From: Hymenobacter lucidus
GTDB lineage: Bacteria; Bacteroidota; Bacteroidia; Cytophagales; Hymenobacteraceae
Length of the DNA stretch: 64,000 nucleotides
Assembly (NCBI RefSeq): GCF_020447265.1
Contig: NZ_JAJADR010000002.1
Location: 124,001 to 188,000 of the forward strand
Direction of reading: 5' to 3'
Positions 3,243 to 58,856 of this stretch are shown here, in pieces (position 1 is the stretch's first letter; each line of letters opens with the position of its first letter). The notes under the pieces are model-generated. The model was not told where the DNA came from. It did not search any database and worked only from the letters and a program-made list of their open reading frames with translations. A program made the position numbers and the translations under genes.

Positions 3243-3974
3243 ATGGTCAAAACCTTCGGTGAATTCCTGATCTTCATGCAAAGCATGCTGGTTCGGAAGG
3301 AAAGGCTGGGCACGCTCTGGCAGCGTACCCTCGACGAAGCCATCCTCATCGGCATCGATTCCGTGTTTATCGTTGCCATCGTCTCCGCCTTTATTGGGGC
3401 CGTTACCTGCGTTCAGATTGCCTACAACCTCGTCAATCCGCTCATCCCAAAGTCCACTATCGGCTTTATGGTGCGCGAAATGACGATTCTGGAACTGGCC
3501 CCCACCATTACCAGCATCGTGTTGGCCGGCAAAGTTGGCTCCAGCATTGCCGGCGGCCTGGGCACGATGCGCATCACCGAGCAGGTCGATGCACTGGAGG
3601 TAATGGGCATCAACTCGGCCTCCTATCTGGTGCTGCCCAAAATCGTGGCCGCCATGCTCATGTTTCCGCTGCTAGTGGTGCTGGCCATGGTGCTGTCCAT
3701 TACGGGTGGCTACTTAGCCGGCACGCTGTCCGGAGCCATGTCGGCCCAAGAGTACGTGGAAGGCATTCGTACCGACTTTGTGCCCTACAACATCGTTTTT
3801 GCGTTGATTAAATCGGTGGTATTTGCCTTTCTGGTGTCGGCTATTTCTTCCTATAAAGGCTATTACACCAAAGGCGGCGCACTGGAAGTAGGTGCGGCCA
3901 GCACCGGCGCCGTTACCAATTCCATTATTGCCATCCTGCTGGCCGACTACGTGCTGGCGGCAGTACTCTTGTAA
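3243..3974 (+). CDS. MlaE family ABC transporter permease
   Basis: This 243-residue membrane protein has several hydrophobic helices and the conserved MlaE-type segments: AFIGAVTCVQIAYNL, then VREMTILELAPTITSIVLAGKVGSSIAGGLGTM near the middle, then TEQVDALEVMGINSASYLVLPKI. MlaE permeases pair with an MlaF ATPase and an MCE-domain (MlaD) protein to move phospholipids between membranes. The ATPase follows about 105 bp downstream; no MCE protein is in the window. The length is slightly short of E. coli MlaE (about 260), with the N-terminal helix present. The stop codon forms the edge of the hairpin at 3973. The specific lipid role is inferred from the family. Confidence 0.9.
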   Translation: MVKTFGEFLIFMQSMLVRKERLGTLWQRTLDEAILIGIDSVFIVAIVSAFIGAVTCVQIAYNLVNPLIPKSTIGFMVREMTILELAPTITSIVLAGKVGSSIAGGLGTMRITEQVDALEVMGINSASYLVLPKIVAAMLMFPLLVVLAMVLSITGGYLAGTLSGAMSAQEYVEGIRTDFVPYNIVFALIKSVVFAFLVSAISSYKGYYTKGGALEVGAASTGAVTNSIIAILLADYVLAAVLL

Positions 3975-5514: not shown

Positions 5515-5608
5515 CAGGAGCAGTTTGGTTGCAGCCCGCAAGGTACTAAAAGGTAGTCGGCGGCTGGGCAACAGTGATTTTCCCTGTGCGTGTGTTGTGC
5601 CTGTCATC

Positions 5609-5710
5609 GTTGTTGCCGTCTGTCATCCTGAACTTGCGCAGGACCTTTCTCTACTGAGTTATAAGGAGAAGAAGATCCTGCGCAAGTTCAGGATGACGGA
5701 CGGCAACAAC
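5609..5710. repeat. REP-like palindrome (CATCCTGA family)
   Basis: The arms 5609-5643 and 5676-5710 match at 33 or 34 of 35 positions, with the core GTCATCCTGAACTTGCGCAGGA. The spacer is about 32 bp. The same core recurs at 49890 and 50931, and as a single arm near 26550. It lies between the YfiT gene start and the bifunctional-nuclease gene. Confidence 0.8.
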
Positions 5711-5717
5711 CTTCAAA

Positions 5718-5758
5718 TGCAAAAAAGGCTCCTCCATAACAGAGAAGCCTTTTTTGCA
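5718..5758 (-). terminator. Terminator of the bifunctional nuclease gene
   Basis: The arms TGCAAAAAAGGCT (5718-5730) and AGCCTTTTTTGCA (5746-5758) are perfect complements. It lies 15 bp past the stop of the minus-strand gene ending at 5774, and A/T runs on both sides would allow function in either direction. Confidence 0.75.
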
Positions 5759-6410: not shown

Positions 6411-6505
6411 TTAGGGTCTTGGGAGCTTGGGGTCTTGGACGCGTATTCAGAGCGGCAAAGCTAGTCTTTCCCGGTTCTGAAACCCAAGACCCCAAGACCC
6501 TAATT
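6411..6505. repeat. Low-complexity hairpin between etfA and the BFN gene
   Basis: The left arm (6411-6438) and right arm (6483-6505) are made of the word GGTCTTGGG(AGCTTG); the complement of the right arm reads AATTAGGGTCTTGGGGTC. The right arm covers the etfA stop codon (6500-6502). The left arm lies 14 bp from the BFN start codon. It belongs to the short-word hairpin group of this window. Confidence 0.7.
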
Positions 6506-7477
6506 CAATTCCTTTACGGCCTGGGTGAGTTTGGGCAATACGTCGAAAACGTCCCCAACGATGCCGTAGTCGGCAGCTTTAAAGAACGGCGCCTCCGGAT
6601 CTTTGTTGATTACGACAATCACTTTCGAGGAGTTTACCCCGGCCAGGTGCTGAATAGCGCCCGAAATGCCGCAGGCAATGTACAGGTTCGGCGACACAGT
6701 GATGCCCGTCTGGCCCACGTGCTCGTGGTGAGGGCGCCAGTCTACGTCCGACACGGGCTTAGAGCAGGCCGTAGCCGCACCCAAGGCTTTGGCCAGGTCC
6801 TCAATCAGGTGCCAGTTTTCGGGGCCTTTCATGCCCCGGCCACCCGATACTACGCGGTCAGCCTCGGGCAGCAGAATGCCGCCGGCCTGATCCTGCATTA
6901 CTACCTGTTTGGGCGCGTCGGTGAAGTCGGCGTCCGATAGGCCAGCCGAGAACGACTCAACCTGGGCGGTTTTGCCGGCTTCGTGCGAAGCCTCAATCGA
7001 GTTCTTCTTCACGGCCAGAATTTTCCGGTCGCCGGTCAGTACCACGTCGGCAAAGGCTTTGCCCGAGAAGGCACCGCGCTTCACCGTGAAGCTGCCACCA
7101 TCGTTTTTGGGCAGCTCTACTACGTTGGTCGCCAGGCTGGCCTTCAGCCGCACCGACAGGCGCGAGCCCACCGAGGCCCCGATGTTGGAATTGGCCAGCA
7201 CGATTACTGCCGAGCTTTCCTTTTCCACCGCGGCGGCAATCAGCTTGGTGTAGGCGCTGTTTACGAAATCCTTCAAGCGAGGCTCCGCGTCGTACAATAC
7301 CTTGCTGATGCCCTGCTCACCGAGCTTGGCCAGATTGGCTTCGGTAGCCTCGCCCACGGCCACGGCCGTAGCCGTGGTGCCAAGCATCTGCGCTACCTGG
7401 CTTCCGTACGAAGCCACTTCCAGCGACGATTTTTTTACCTCGCCACCATCACATTCAACTACAACTAGAACGGACAT
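6500..7477 (-). CDS. etfA: Electron transfer flavoprotein subunit alpha
   Basis: This 325-residue ETF alpha subunit (FixB family) has an N-terminal alpha/beta ETF domain and a C-terminal FAD-binding domain. The diagnostic motifs are GGRGMKGPENW near residue 213 and DWRPHHEHVGQTG, NLYIACGISGAIQHLAGV and INKDPEAPFFKAADYGIVGD near the end. With EtfB it forms the soluble heterodimer that carries electrons from acyl-CoA and other dehydrogenases to ETF-quinone oxidoreductase. It follows etfB after about 106 bp, filled by a low-complexity hairpin. The length is typical. Confidence 0.95.
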   Translation of the reverse strand: MSVLVVVECDGGEVKKSSLEVASYGSQVAQMLGTTATAVAVGEATEANLAKLGEQGISKVLYDAEPRLKDFVNSAYTKLIAAAVEKESSAVIVLANSNIGASVGSRLSVRLKASLATNVVELPKNDGGSFTVKRGAFSGKAFADVVLTGDRKILAVKKNSIEASHEAGKTAQVESFSAGLSDADFTDAPKQVVMQDQAGGILLPEADRVVSGGRGMKGPENWHLIEDLAKALGAATACSKPVSDVDWRPHHEHVGQTGITVSPNLYIACGISGAIQHLAGVNSSKVIVVINKDPEAPFFKAADYGIVGDVFDVLPKLTQAVKELN

Positions 7478-7490
7478 TTCTTTGGTTTTT

Positions 7491-7586
7491 TGAGTTTGGT
7501 TTTTGGTTATTTGGGGTTCAACGAGTTGGTTTTGTGCTGTTTCGGCTTAAGCCAAAAACAGAAAACCAACAACCAAAAACCAATTA
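7491..7586. repeat. Low-complexity hairpin between etfB and etfA
   Basis: The left arm (7491-7514) and right arm (7552-7586) are made of TTTGGTTTTTGGTT words. The right arm covers the etfB stop codon (7584-7586); the left arm ends 13 bp from the etfA start. A smaller stem lies in the loop (GGCTTAAGCC at 7544-7553). As in the mlaE-mlaF pair, the hairpin occupies nearly the whole gap between two obligate partners. Confidence 0.75.
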
Positions 7587-8324
7587 AATCACCTTGGCTT
7601 CGTTACGGAGCAGCTTGATCAAATCACCGGCCGACTCGGCGGGGATGAGCTTCACGCCCTGCTTCTTGGGCGGCAGTGCGTACTCGGCTACCGAAGTGCG
7701 GGCACCTTCGCCCACGGCTTCCACCACTTTCAGCGGCTTGGTGCGGGCCGTCATGATGCCACGCATGTTCGGAATGCGGGGCTCGCACATGGGCTGCTGG
7801 CACGAGGCCACGAAAGGCGCCGAAACTTCCACGATTTCCTTGCCGCCTTCAATTTCGCGCTCTAGCGTAGCCGTGCTGCCGCTCATATCGAGCTTCATGG
7901 CCGGGGCCACTGTCGGGATGCCGAGCATTTCGCCCACCATGCCGTGCACCTGAAAGCCATTGTAGTCAATGCTTTCCTTGCCCATCAGAATCACGTCGTA
8001 GGCACCTTCTTTAGCAACCGCAGCAATCTGCTGGGCCACGAAATAAGCATCCTTCGGAGCGGCATTCACGCGGATGGCGTCGTCGGCCCCGATGGCCAGA
8101 GCCTTGCGGATATTGGGTTCGGTGTCGGCTTCGCCCACGTTGAGGACGGTAACAGTGCCGCTGCCCTGGGCTTCTTTGAGCTCAATGGCACGGGTGAGGG
8201 CATATTCATCCCAGGGATTAATCACGAATTGCACCCCTGCCTTGTTGAACTCCTTGTTATCGGGCGTGAAGGCAATTTTGGTGGTCGTGTCGGGAACGTT
8301 GCTGATGCAAACGAGAAACTTCAT
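7584..8324 (-). CDS. etfB: Electron transfer flavoprotein subunit beta
   Basis: This 246-residue EtfB/FixA protein begins MKFLVCISNVPDTTTKI and contains the ETF beta signature region VAPAMKLDMSGSTATLEREIEGGKEIVEVSAPFV, with INPWDEYALTRAIELKE near residue 36. It binds AMP in the family and pairs with EtfA. It is the first gene of the etfB-etfA pair. A sequence close to the Bacteroidota -7 box (TATCTTCG, complement of 8378-8385) lies about 55 bp upstream of the start and is the likely promoter. Confidence 0.95.
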   Translation of the reverse strand: MKFLVCISNVPDTTTKIAFTPDNKEFNKAGVQFVINPWDEYALTRAIELKEAQGSGTVTVLNVGEADTEPNIRKALAIGADDAIRVNAAPKDAYFVAQQIAAVAKEGAYDVILMGKESIDYNGFQVHGMVGEMLGIPTVAPAMKLDMSGSTATLEREIEGGKEIVEVSAPFVASCQQPMCEPRIPNMRGIMTARTKPLKVVEAVGEGARTSVAEYALPPKKQGVKLIPAESAGDLIKLLRNEAKVI

Positions 8325-12421: not shown

Positions 12422-12491
12422 AATTCAGCTAAGCAAGCAAAAAGGCCGGAACGATGCATCGTCCCGGCCTTTTTGCTTGCTTAGCTGAATT
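12422..12491. terminator. Very long bidirectional terminator hairpin
   Basis: The arms 12422-12454 and 12459-12491 pair over 33 bp with one mismatch and a 4-nt loop. The inner part has AAAAAGGCCGG...CCGGCCTTTTT symmetry. The right arm overlaps the pyruvate carboxylase stop codon (12490-12492). Confidence 0.85.
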
Positions 12492-16876: not shown

Positions 16877-16952
16877 GTTGTTGGTTGCTGATTGTTGGTT
16901 GTCTTGAACGTACATCCTAACAATCGACAACTGACAATCAGCAACCAACAAC
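16877..16952. repeat. Low-complexity hairpin between SDR and photolyase genes
   Basis: The arms 16877-16895 and 16934-16952 are perfect complements over 19 bp and extend imperfectly inward. They are composed of GTTGTTGGTTG/CTGATTG words. The hairpin starts 8 bp after the SDR stop and ends 11 bp before the photolyase ATG. The same GGTTGTT word forms the one-armed tandem at 48494. Confidence 0.75.
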
Positions 16953-25400: not shown

Positions 25401-25410
25401 GGGTTATTTT

Positions 25411-25511
25411 TTAGTTGTCCGTTGTTAGTTGTTCGTTGCCAGGATTTTAAGTCACGCGAGAAAGGTAGTGGCATCAACCCGAACAACTGACAACTAACAA
25501 CGGACAATTAA
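25411..25511. repeat. Low-complexity hairpin between DAHP synthase and AraC genes
   Basis: The arms 25411-25438 and 25484-25511 match at about 24 of 28 positions and are made of GTTGTTAGTTGTC(CG) words. The right arm ends 2 bp before the stop codon of the DAHP synthase gene (25514), and the left arm begins about 10 bp before the AraC gene's start. It could be a weak terminator or transcript-stabilising stem between same-strand genes. Confidence 0.7.
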
Positions 25512-25513
25512 CC

Positions 25514-26527
25514 CTACTCCAGTTCCTGGCGCAGGGCGTACACTTTGCGCAGGTTTTTAATCAGCCGGGCCGATTCGGTGAAGTTGAGCGTCTGTTGCCC
25601 GTCGGAGGCGGCTTCTTCAGGCTTCTCGTGGGCCTCGTAGATGATGCCGTCGGCCCCGGCCATGACGCCGGCCAGCGCCATGGGCGCCACGTACTCCCGG
25701 ATGCCAATGCCGTGCGACGGATCAACTACCACGGGCAGGTGGGTTTTTTCCTTGAGAATGGGCACTGCATTAAGGTCCAGGGTATTACGCGAGGCCGTTT
25801 CGAAGGTACGGATGCCCCTTTCGCAGAGAATCAGCTTTTCATTGCCTCCCGAAAACACGTACTCAGCCGACGAAAGCAGCTCCTCAATGGTGCCCGAAAT
25901 GCCGCGCTTGATCATCACCGGCTTGTCCACGCCACCCAGCGCGTCGAGCAGGTTGAAGTTCTGGGTGTTGCGGGCCCCCACCTGGAACACGTCCACGTAG
26001 TCGTGCATCTCCTCCACCTGCGACACCTGCATTACCTCGGTCACGATTTTGATGCCGTGGGCGCGGGCCATCTGGTGAAACAGCTTTAGGCCATCCATGC
26101 CCAGGCCCCGGAACGAGTAGGGCGACGAGCGGGGCTTGAACACCCCGCCGCGCATCAGGCGCACGTCGTTTTCCACGAGGTGCTGCATGATTTTCTCCAT
26201 CTGGGCCTCACTCTCAATGCTGCACGGCCCAGCCGCAATGCTCAACGAGCCTTCCCCAATACGAACTCCGTCGCCGAGGTCGAGGACGGTGGGGCGCACA
26301 CGCCACTTGCGGCTCACCAGCTTATAGTCGTCCGACACGCGGTGAATGTCCAAAATGCCGGGCAACTGGCCCAGGGTGCGCAGGTCCACTTCGGCCTTGC
26401 CGGTGCCCACCAGGTAGCTGGCGCGCTGGGTATCGACTTCGGTTACTTTGAATTTAGCGTCTTGGACGCGGGCAATGATGTCGGCCTTTTGCTCGGCCGA
26501 AATGTTCTTTTCGAGTTGAATGATCAT
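25514..26527 (-). CDS. aroF: 3-deoxy-7-phosphoheptulonate (DAHP) synthase
   Basis: This 337-residue enzyme condenses phosphoenolpyruvate and erythrose 4-phosphate, the first step of the shikimate pathway. It has an N-terminal ACT/FDD-like domain (about 1-70: MIIQLEKNISAEQKADIIARV) before the class I-beta barrel, which contains AGPCSIESEAQM, RGGVFKPRSSPYSFRGLG, EVMQVSQVEEM, MIKRGISGTIEE and VVVDPSHGIGIREYV. The N-terminal domain suggests feedback control. It is the last gene of the trp cluster, about 60 bp after trpA, which links supply of chorismate to Trp synthesis. Confidence 0.92.
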   Translation of the reverse strand: MIIQLEKNISAEQKADIIARVQDAKFKVTEVDTQRASYLVGTGKAEVDLRTLGQLPGILDIHRVSDDYKLVSRKWRVRPTVLDLGDGVRIGEGSLSIAAGPCSIESEAQMEKIMQHLVENDVRLMRGGVFKPRSSPYSFRGLGMDGLKLFHQMARAHGIKIVTEVMQVSQVEEMHDYVDVFQVGARNTQNFNLLDALGGVDKPVMIKRGISGTIEELLSSAEYVFSGGNEKLILCERGIRTFETASRNTLDLNAVPILKEKTHLPVVVDPSHGIGIREYVAPMALAGVMAGADGIIYEAHEKPEEAASDGQQTLNFTESARLIKNLRKVYALRQELE

Positions 26528-44358: not shown

Positions 44359-44397
44359 TTTATTAGGGCTTAGGAGGCACTCGATTTGCTTCGCAAA

Positions 44398-44451
44398 AGG
44401 CCAAAAAGAAAGGGACGATTCTGTACAGAATCGTCCCTTTCTTTTTGGCCT
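44398..44451. terminator. Perfect 54-bp palindrome acting as bidirectional terminator
   Basis: 44398-44424 and 44425-44451 are exact reverse complements with no loop spacer. The sequence includes AAAAAGAAAGGGACG and its mirror CGTCCCTTTCTTTTT. It separates convergent genes ending at 44358 and 44483. It is unusually long and exact for a terminator. Confidence 0.85.
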
Positions 44452-44482
44452 TGCCTGCTTGATGCCAGGCGCTAAGACCTGA

Positions 44483-55064: not shown

Positions 55065-55120
55065 TGAGGTACAGTAAAAAGGCCCACCTGCTAGCAGGTG
55101 GGCCTTTTTACTGTACCTCA
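55065..55120. terminator. Perfect 56-bp palindrome acting as bidirectional terminator
   Basis: 55065-55092 and 55093-55120 are exact reverse complements with no spacer. The centre is CCACCTGCTAGCAGGTGG, with flanking AAAAAGG/CCTTTTT. It separates the convergent gene ends at 55055 and 55131. Confidence 0.88.
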
Positions 55121-56785: not shown

Positions 56786-57275
56786 AGTGATGGGTCGCCC
56801 CACCGCGGCAAAGGGGGCAACTCCGGCGACGAGGAAAGTCCGGGCAACGCAGAGCACCCTGCTTCCTAACGGGAAGGACTGGTAAGCGTAAAGTAAACCA
56901 GGACAGCCAGTGCCACAGAAAAATACCGCCAGGCGGTGAGTTAGTGATTTAGCGAATCAGTGAGTTGTCGTTCAATTGGCGCAAGCCGAACAGAAAATTC
57001 ACTAAATCACCAATTCACTAAATCACATCTGGTAAGGGTGAAAAGGTGCGGTAAGAGCGCACCAGCGGCTGGGCAACCATGCCGGCTGGGTAAACCTCAG
57101 GGGTTGAAAGACCAAATAAGCTGGTACGCAGGGCCGCAAGGCCTTGCACCGGGCGGCTCGTCCGGCGCCAGCGGGTAGGTTGATGGAGCCTTTCCGCGAG
57201 GACTGGCCTAGATAAATGGTGGGGCCGCTTCTGCTTGCAGGGGCGGACAAAACCCGGCTTACAGACTCATCACCG
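56786..57275 (+). ncRNA. rnpB: RNase P RNA (bacterial class A), enlarged by an insertion
   Basis: This is the catalytic RNA that trims 5' ends of pre-tRNA. Conserved blocks in order are GACGAGGAAAGTCCGGGC near 56829, ACAGAAAAATACCGCC (56915-56930), GGTAAGGGTGAAAAGGTGCG and GTAAGAGCGCACC (57031-57063), the AGATAAATGG element near 57210 and ACAAAACCCGGCTTAC near 57248-57262. P1 is formed by GTGATGGGT (56787-56795) with ACTCATCAC (57265-57273). The length is about 490 nt against 350-400 in most bacteria; the excess is mainly a hairpin of about 91 nt with low-complexity arms (56936-57026), where E. coli has only a short hairpin. Confidence 0.93.
56936..57026 (+). repeat. Low-complexity hairpin inserted in rnpB
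   Basis: The left arm (56936-56967) and right arm (56996-57026) are imperfect complements, 24 of 31 positions, made of repeats of GTGATTTAGTGAAT/ATTCACTAAATCAC words. The loop is about 28 nt and contains a small GGC...GCC stem. The conserved RNase P blocks are intact on both sides (CCGCC before, GGTAAGGG after). The word structure matches the intergenic hairpins of this window. Confidence 0.85.
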
Positions 57276-57282
57276 GCTCTAC

Positions 57283-57559: not shown

Positions 57560-57698
57560 TACTGCCGGGGCCTACCGGCACTTGCGGCCCTAGCGTTTCG
57601 AAGGCCCCCTGTGCGCCTTGCCCTGGTTTTTCGCGTAGGTGTACACTGCCCGGCTCACTCTTTTCGTTACATTCGCTCCCCATACCTTTTGCAACCCT

Positions 57699-58856
57699 AT
57701 GCCCAGAATCCTGATTATTGACGACGAAAAGGCCATCCGGAATACTCTAAAGGAGATTCTGGAATACGAGAGCTACACCGTCGACCAGGCCGAGGACGGC
57801 CCCACCGGCCTCGATATGCTCATCAAGAACAAGTATGACGTGGTACTCTGCGACATCAAGATGCCCAAGATGGACGGCATCGAGGTGCTGGAGCGGGCCC
57901 AGATTGCGGCCCCGGATGCCGCCTTCATCATGGTATCGGCCCACGGCAACATCGATACGGCCGTGGACGCCACCAAGAAGGGCGCCTTTGACTTCATCCA
58001 GAAGCCACCGGACCTGAACCGCCTGCTCGTAACGGTGCGCAACGCCCTGGACCGCACCAAGCTCGTGACTGAGACCAAGACGCTCAAGAAGAAGATTGCT
58101 AAAAGCTCGGAAATGATTGGCTCCTCGGCCGAGCTCGAAGCCGTGCGCAAGCAGATTGCCAAAGTAGCCCCCACCGACGCCCGCGTACTTATTACGGGCC
58201 CTAATGGGGCGGGCAAGGAAATGGTAGCCCGCAACCTGCACGAGCTCAGCAACCGCGCCAACGGCCCCCTGATTGAGGTCAACTGCGCCGCCATTCCCTC
58301 CGAGCTGATCGAATCGGAGCTGTTTGGGCACGAGAAAGGCTCGTTCACGTCGGCCGTGAAGCAACGCATCGGCAAGTTTGAGCAGGCCGACGGCGGCACG
58401 CTGTTTCTGGACGAAATCGGGGATATGAGCCTCTCGGCCCAGGCCAAGGTGCTGCGGGCTTTGCAGGAAAGCAAGATTACCCGGGTGGGCGGCGAGAAGG
58501 AAATTTCGGTGAACGTGCGCGTCATTGCCGCCACCAACAAGGACCTGCAGCAGGAAATAGCCGAGCGTAACTTCCGGGAAGACCTCTACCACCGCCTCTC
58601 CGTTATCCTGATTAAAGTACCGGCCCTCAACGACCGGCGCGACGACATCGGCGACCTGGTGCAGCGTTTCCTCCAGGATATTGCCCGCGACTACGGCGAC
58701 AAACCCAAGAACATCGACGCCAAGGCCCTGGAGTACCTTAAAGGCCTCGACTGGCGCGGCAACATCCGCGAGCTGCGCAACGTGGTAGAGCGCCTCATTA
58801 TCATGAGCGACGACACCATTACGGAAGCCGATGCCAAAGCATTTGCCGGCAAGTAA
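57699..58856 (+). CDS. Response regulator with sigma-54-activator-type AAA+ domain, no DNA-binding domain
   Basis: The start at 57699 (MPRILIIDDEKAIRN) gives 385 residues. The receiver domain (1-120) has phospho-Asp in VVLCDIKMP and Lys in FIQKPP. The AAA+ domain has a Walker A-like GPNGAGKE, ELFGHEKGSFTSAVKQR where the sigma-54 loop GAFTGA is expected (GSFTSA here), GGTLFLDEIGDM (Walker B) and NFREDLYHRLSVILIKVP. The protein stops at NIRELRNVVERLII plus 17 residues, so the Fis-type helix-turn-helix is absent. A two-component output role is clear; how it reaches promoters is not. It follows the palindrome array. Confidence 0.88.
   Translation: MPRILIIDDEKAIRNTLKEILEYESYTVDQAEDGPTGLDMLIKNKYDVVLCDIKMPKMDGIEVLERAQIAAPDAAFIMVSAHGNIDTAVDATKKGAFDFIQKPPDLNRLLVTVRNALDRTKLVTETKTLKKKIAKSSEMIGSSAELEAVRKQIAKVAPTDARVLITGPNGAGKEMVARNLHELSNRANGPLIEVNCAAIPSELIESELFGHEKGSFTSAVKQRIGKFEQADGGTLFLDEIGDMSLSAQAKVLRALQESKITRVGGEKEISVNVRVIAATNKDLQQEIAERNFREDLYHRLSVILIKVPALNDRRDDIGDLVQRFLQDIARDYGDKPKNIDAKALEYLKGLDWRGNIRELRNVVERLIIMSDDTITEADAKAFAGK

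Follow-up and report, generated by a model that had tools for sequence, protein, structure and literature searches.

Probable exchange of dispersed word-repeat hairpins in the P12 helix of RNase P RNA in Hymenobacter lucidus and its relatives

The P12 helix of RNase P RNA in Hymenobacter and its sister genera holds varied occupants at one and the same site, with sharp edges, with relatives dispersed elsewhere in the genome, with no sign of an RNA pairing constraint on the long forms and with no fit of the P12 state to the tree. We consider it probable (roughly 0.6) that dispersed quasi-palindromes made of periodic words are swapped as cassettes into slots that tolerate a hairpin, P12 among them. 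P12 would then be one 'hairpin slot' among several that these genomes have, and its occupant a member of dispersed non-coding quasi-palindrome families, whose arms consist of 7- or 8-nt words in degenerate tandem arrays and whose tip, between the arms, often bears (T)CGTTC. The hairpin would be exchanged whole, as one cassette, where the helix begins, the native tip giving way to a word hairpin, and a word hairpin to another word hairpin or again to a short tip. We infer that the swaps run in these directions, that the occupants stem mostly from dispersed copies of the same genome, and that a DNA process acting on hairpins copies them, be it replication template switching or conversion, or transposition in trans. 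A word hairpin would be tolerated in P12 because, as we propose, this helix is peripheral and its length hardly matters.

The starting point is rnpB of H. lucidus, in a stretch of 64,000 nt that was analysed as a whole and is called the window here (Table 1). Scored against the class A covariance model RF00010, as the original prediction had proposed, the gene gives 237.5 bits in one match over model positions 1-367 (gathering cut-off 100), which places it in class A by a full-length match; it is the sole match reported for the 5.94-Mb genome. The surplus bases are located in P12, between ACCGCC and GGTAAGGG. The hairpin at 56936-57026 (about 91 nt, octamer words) has a folding energy of -29.8 kcal/mol as compared to a shuffled mean of -13.96 (z -5.6; 0 of 200 shuffles equally stable), and its 5' arm repeats with period 8 at 79% identity between repeats. 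A stem of about 91 nt inside an rnpB of about 490 nt, as predicted from the window, is thus borne out (491 nt), whereas its extent needs correction: the predicted stretch does fold, but the segment that is swapped, as judged by relatives, is 56931-57030. An intrinsic terminator within rnpB was considered and rejected, as the hairpin arms are AT-rich and followed by ATCTGGTAAGGG and do not form a G+C-rich stem with a T run.

Table 1. Features of the window that bear on the P12 hairpin
Feature	Position	Strand	Basis
rnpB, class A RNase P RNA, 491 nt	56787..57277	+	cmscan RF00010
P12 segment swapped between species, ACCGCC to GGTAAGGG	56931..57030	+	relatives compared (101 rnpBs of the genus, 84 others from genus or family)
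Word hairpin, 5' arm, octamer words GTGANTTA	56936..56966	+	fold, period 8
Hairpin tip CGTTCAA..GCGCAAGC..GAACA, alike in several dispersed copies	56967..56995	+	by eye; TCGTTC counts
Word hairpin, 3' arm	56996..57026	+	fold
NtrC-like response regulator beside rnpB	57639..58853	+	PF00158 and PF00072
Word hairpin, GGGTCTTGG words, between co-directional ORFs	6411..6503		
Word hairpin, GGTTTTT words, between co-directional ORFs	7476..7589		
Word hairpin, GTTGTTG words, tip TTGAACG	16877..16952		
Word hairpin, GTTGTCC words	25401..25514		

rnpB is present in all 101 genus genomes examined, 99 times above the cut-off. P12 was read in these 101 genes and then in 84 additional genomes, which come from the genus and from five other genera of its family, and the count comprises 184 rows, 108 from the genus and 76 from the five sister genera; L332, which has a long P12 region of 70 nt in an rnpB that ends at a contig edge, was excluded beforehand, L315 was trimmed by hand as the pattern had matched too far upstream, and the partial rnpBs L219 and L220 were kept for the P12 counts and left out of the conserved-helix, column-association and pair analyses. 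A long P12 occurs in 55 of the 108 genus rnpBs and in 35 of the 76 sister-genus rnpBs, about half of the species having a short one, and the words vary by species. By eye, the short alleles of the genus are mostly TACGTNGCCTTCGGGCNGCC-like or CGCAAG, and the words of its long alleles include GTGATTTA, GAGTTAA, TTTAACA, GGTGAGAT, AGCTGTT, GGGTCTTA, GGGTAAGC and GTTGTCA, to which the other genera add AATTAGG and CAGTAAA. The alignment of relatives that the original prediction had called for therefore shows the site with the stem, without it and with other words. Of the 90 long P12s, 66 have an arm repeat at lag 7 or 8 (at least 50% identity), where shuffling gives 8.4 on average, and 16 of the 55 from the genus have the tip motif TCGTTC, where it gives 0.7. 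The idea of an element inserted into the short hairpin has to be replaced by one of substitution: the native tip (TACGT..TTCGGGC), sought as TACGT or as TTCGGGC/CTCGGGC, is retained in 0 of the 90 long alleles, so that the hairpin takes the place of the P12 tip and does not extend it. No compound forms of old tip plus new hairpin were seen among the long P12s, and the replacement step itself is thus unobserved.

How does the state of P12 relate to descent? A tree was built from the rnpB core and the neighbouring response-regulator gene, which is present in 87 of 100 other rnpB loci; the 13 of 101 taxa without the gene were left off, and 88 taxa remained, 44 long and 44 short. The long/short state requires 28 changes on this tree as compared to a mean of 29.9 and a lowest value of 22 in 200 label shuffles, and thus agrees with the tree no more closely than permuted labels do. 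It is shared by 62% of the 21 pairs with neighbour genes at least 93% identical and by about 49% of distant pairs, so that a weak tree signal may remain at the shortest distances. L030 and L166 have rnpB cores that are 98.5% identical, neighbour genes that are 95% identical, and different P12s. In all six close long/short pairs looked at, only the hairpin and the 3-4 bases that immediately precede ACCGCC change; there are otherwise 0 differences in the 26 alignment columns ahead of the P12 block and in the 39 that follow it, and L030/L166 are free of differences for 120 columns downstream of P12, L185/L188 for 112 upstream.

The bases just before ACCGCC correlate with the allele type (ATA: 12 short, 0 long; AGTA: 12 long, 1 short), and two rnpB columns 43-44 nt downstream of the GGTAAGGG start, which as placed by eye perhaps correspond to the L14 tetraloop, are associated with the P12 state (z 5.0 and 8.9). 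Three columns about 100 nt upstream reach z 3-4 and 4.5% of the variable columns of the neighbour gene lie above z 3; the association is clear only for the bases before ACCGCC and the two downstream columns. Such allele-linked bases beside P12 mean that part of the pattern may be due to descent or exchange from rnpB to rnpB. One could go further and assume that old P12 alleles pass between species by homologous recombination at rnpB and that hairpin insertions are few, which would agree with a state that does not follow the tree, with these adjoining bases, and with word types that are alike in distant clades and have the rnpB-type bases AGGCGGTGA..TCACCTTT in common. We regard this as rather unlikely, as there is no clear linkage past about 45 nt and the edges in the six close pairs are sharp. 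The origin of the occupants and the behaviour of a second slot bear on it as well.

Our search of the H. lucidus genome with the P12 hairpin returned 33 further matches at E<=0.01, some of which are both strands or halves of one copy; the predicted membership in a dispersed hairpin family is hence supported. By eye, the copies that were read lie mostly in short spacers, several of them a few bases from stop and start codons. A sample of 264 kb of the same genome (the window and ten 20-kb stretches) holds further word hairpins, four of them in the window with words unlike those of rnpB (Table 1). When 32 word hairpins were set against mechanical ORF calls, 19 fell between co-directional ORFs, with medians of 1 and 2 nt to the stop and start codon, 7 between convergent and 4 between divergent ORFs, 1 at an edge and 1 inside an ORF. 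TCGTTC is 13 times denser in hairpin tips than in sampled DNA (5.32 versus 0.40 per kb; 49 of 238 hairpins). A fixed tip pattern, GTTCNGCTTGCG..TTNAAC, recovered only the rnpB copy from the own genome, so that the tip is loose. As a separate observation, TCGTTC/GAACGA tips of genus hairpins are by eye also present in non-word families.

Genus-wide, the top-scoring matches listed for the window P12 are intergenic, one in the close relative G091 (104 bits, 87%) and one in the H. lucidus genome itself (96.9 bits, 86%). The rnpB-to-intergenic matches span 85-89 nt at 86-87%, tip included, and matches at E<=1e-8, with no more than 8 candidates scored per genome, occur in at least 8 of the 101 genus genomes. 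When the window P12 was compared directly with the 89 other long rnpB P12s and with 19 loci of its own genome, the two best copies from that genome scored 96.9 and 75.2 bits. The best of the other long P12s is that of L186 (69.8 bits, 77% over 97 nt), and those of L202 (67.1 bits, 76% over 96 nt), L026 (65.3 bits, 93% over 43 nt) and L208 (60.8 bits, 91% over 43 nt) come close to it; all four match from the first base on, with the base AGGCGGTGA of the rnpB type. L186, L202 and L026 come just under the second-best distinct copy of the own genome and L208 is level with its fourth. Judged by sequence similarity, the nearest relatives of the window P12 are thus intergenic copies, but some kinship from rnpB to rnpB is visible too. 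The latter, at 61-70 bits from the first base, would suit recombination between rnpB genes, whereas the intergenic nature of the top-scoring matches speaks against it.

One own-genome copy of the P12-like hairpin is located between era and der. This slot, taken from the era stop codon to the conserved der leader, was read in the 30 best of 101 Der matches, among which its occupants differ. A gapless scan detected a hairpin in 18 of the 30 slots, with word arms in 11, and 10 of the 18 hairpins begin 0-1 nt after the era stop codon; it detected none in the other 12, some of which by eye have imperfect arms while others are short or unstructured. Seventeen genomes in which each slot has a long occupant were compared (G018 having been excluded manually), and in them the words of rnpB and era-der agree with a cosine of 0.365 within a genome as compared to 0.182 between genomes (p=0.0001, n=17, a value that ignores kinship). 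Like swapping in this unlinked slot is a further point against exchange among rnpB genes as the explanation. The single spreading family of the original prediction holds with respect to dispersal but is too simple, as there are many word families of one architecture, with words that tend to agree within a genome.

The G-rich arm comes first in 80 of the 90 long rnpB P12s, in 23 of 25 der slots and in 18 of the 19 word hairpins between co-directional ORFs. An effect of the transcribed strand was rejected as the cause: whichever strand is read, the same arm of an inverted repeat comes first, and the bias is hence a property of the palindrome and not of transcription. tmRNA, the one other RNA looked at, is by eye 369-375 nt long and has no such hairpin insert in the 98 of 101 genomes in which it lies above the cut-off. 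A general invasion of structured RNAs was accordingly rejected. The predicted site in a peripheral helix is supported, and the notion that only helix-compatible sites survive fits, as far as one other RNA can carry that notion.

But what would move the hairpins? No mobiliser of word hairpins was found. Word hairpins might be REPIN-like and moved in trans by a RAYT or another Y1 (HUH) transposase, and excerpts of one paper do propose that RAYTs move hairpin DNA (PMC3116915). Y1_Tnp matches are present in 73 of the 101 genomes, and in sampled surroundings an IS200-like Y1 transposase gene lies within about 3 kb of rnpB at 7 genus loci (L026, L010, L025, L030, L188, L166 and L201). However, 28 of the 101 genomes have no Y1_Tnp match at E<=0.001, several of them with a long P12 (e.g. 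G006, G018, G026, G035), and the word stems have no fixed sequence; a conserved palindromic arm, as in REPINs, is lacking, the arms varying between copies and species. Many of 20 RAYT-like loci are flanked on both sides by fixed-sequence non-word hairpins (AGTAGCGCGAACT... in the own genome, at L374), some have no hairpins, and in only one, L379, is there a word hairpin in the vicinity (3590-3690), in addition to the non-word hairpin of that locus. We therefore rejected membership of the word hairpins in a RAYT/REPIN system and think a mover of this kind distinctly unlikely; the hairpins beside RAYT-like genes indicate that classical REP/RAYT systems coexist with the word hairpins and do not explain them. 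As regards MITE or IS features, the termini of the P12 hairpin are variable and by eye there is no target-site duplication at the rnpB edges. The locus in the own genome (L374 2225-2990; G000:C16:883500-889000), a RAYT-like gene with REP-type hairpins AGTAGCGCGAACTTTGTAGTTCGCG on both sides, is itself a classical REPIN/RAYT arrangement.

Are the long arms kept as an RNA helix? Selection for a helix at the RNA level should place G-U mispairs far above A-C mispairs, as is the case in the conserved helices of 99 genus rnpBs, where the ratio is 538:31. In the arms of the 90 long P12s it is 170:162 (95:113 in the genus and 75:49, a mild G-U excess, in the other genera). With G-U equal to A-C the arms behave as recently copied DNA and not as a selected RNA helix, and their complementarity looks like a DNA-level product that is not maintained by RNA pairing, in the genus at least. 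That the long P12 is functional in the RNA, with a fast-evolving sequence and a helix selected for, e.g., protein binding, is thus very unlikely to us, even though the arms still pair (2520 of 3161 cells are Watson-Crick) and the other genera have their mild excess of G-U; the overall ratio and the short P12 of about half of the species count against it. That slippage and fold-back synthesis generate the words locally, at the P12 hairpin itself and with no dispersal, would fit vocabularies that are alike in taxa far apart (families f5 and f11 of the order, an Armatimonadetes record), but is the least probable account of all in view of the long rnpB-to-intergenic matches that include the tip, an argument that weakens it for the window copy; as the origin of new word types, such slippage and fold-back could still hold.

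Returning to dispersed quasi-palindromes that are swapped as cassettes, we offer one more specific and tentative suggestion, to which we give rather low odds: a DNA process not described before may swap hairpins at hairpin-forming sites, with fold-back or hairpin-templated copying writing the second arm and seeding copies elsewhere. If hairpins were indeed copied onto hairpins, the sequence of the stem would be free, the arms would be complementary with no selection on the RNA, and an essential ribozyme would have traded a helix many times within one genus. As the P12 site is easy to sequence, both the spread of hairpin repeats and such copying are directly testable there in strains of a single species.

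Repeats in rnpB have precedents. The nearest known case is that of the short tandemly repeated repetitive (STRR) sequences of cyanobacteria, heptamers that lengthen P12. Vioque reportedly described STRRs in 1997 in rnpB of heterocyst-forming species. Elhai is said to have described in 2008 the small dispersed repeats (SDRs) of Nostoc, of 21-27 nt and fixed sequence. Like STRRs, the word hairpins of H. lucidus are dispersed short tandem repeats that are found within rnpB as well, as the lag of 7 or 8 in the long P12s illustrates. Different from STRRs, the hairpins described here, in Bacteroidota, have inverted-copy arms that form one hairpin, periods of 7 and 8 and words that vary by species, they replace the native tip, and like swapping takes place outside rnpB. 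The SDRs of Nostoc differ in that they are short and fixed, whereas word hairpins are about 90 nt long with variable words; excerpts of two papers mention SDRs as very small and thought to be mobile (PMC2884548, PMC3116915). REPINs, in the excerpted account of PMC3116915, resemble word hairpins in being intergenic, with inverted arms and populations within a genome, but have conserved arms and a RAYT alongside, whereas the arms of word hairpins vary and RAYT-like genes adjoin other hairpins; most REPs are tagged GTAG or CGTC according to PMC3733652. The small variable segments and dimorphic loci treated in part of PMC2884548 share with P12 the replacement of a segment at a fixed locus between relatives, and the segments described here differ from them in being members of structured repeat families, with one of the loci inside an essential RNA. 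As to the helix itself, a passage of PMC8172020 names P12 among the most conserved helices and one of PMC2858038, with Vioque 1997 as its source, has it as sometimes dispensable, e.g. in cyanobacteria.

Searches of open-licence papers turned up no description of such rnpB repeats in Bacteroidota. Repeats in rnpB are already known; what appears to be new is that the tip is replaced, that the words form dialects, that there is a second slot and that the arms have a DNA-level signature. An essential RNA enzyme would host repeat hairpins freely, one outer arm being replaced again and again, and the mispair counts suggest that the long P12 helix travels as cargo of the DNA and is not maintained as RNA. 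With 90 long variants to date, there is a natural library of replacements for one helix of an essential ribozyme.

Some minor observations may be added. Beyond the family, word-like P12s were noticed by eye in five rnpBs of f5 and three of f11, among the longer rnpBs picked from 148 genomes of the order, and an Armatimonadetes MAG record (L070), from another phylum, has a word-like P12 hairpin with TTTCAGATTGCGGATTTCAG words. A leader of about CACTTAACTACTCCGGGCACTGCC..GGTCGG.CTGGCGGCTGGAGTC, conserved by eye in 30 of 30 loci (L344-L373), lies just upstream of der and is possibly a structured RNA. A second, non-word hairpin family of the GTCATGCTGAGC..GAAGCATCTC type fills some slots of the same kind; it is found in the window at 5595-5724 and 395-492, at L221:1139-1244 and in the der slots of L368, L370 and L371. 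Finally, the window holds perfect or near-perfect palindromes with an A-run and a T-run in the stem at 44397-44452, 55065-55120 and 12422-12491, which are perhaps bidirectional terminators.
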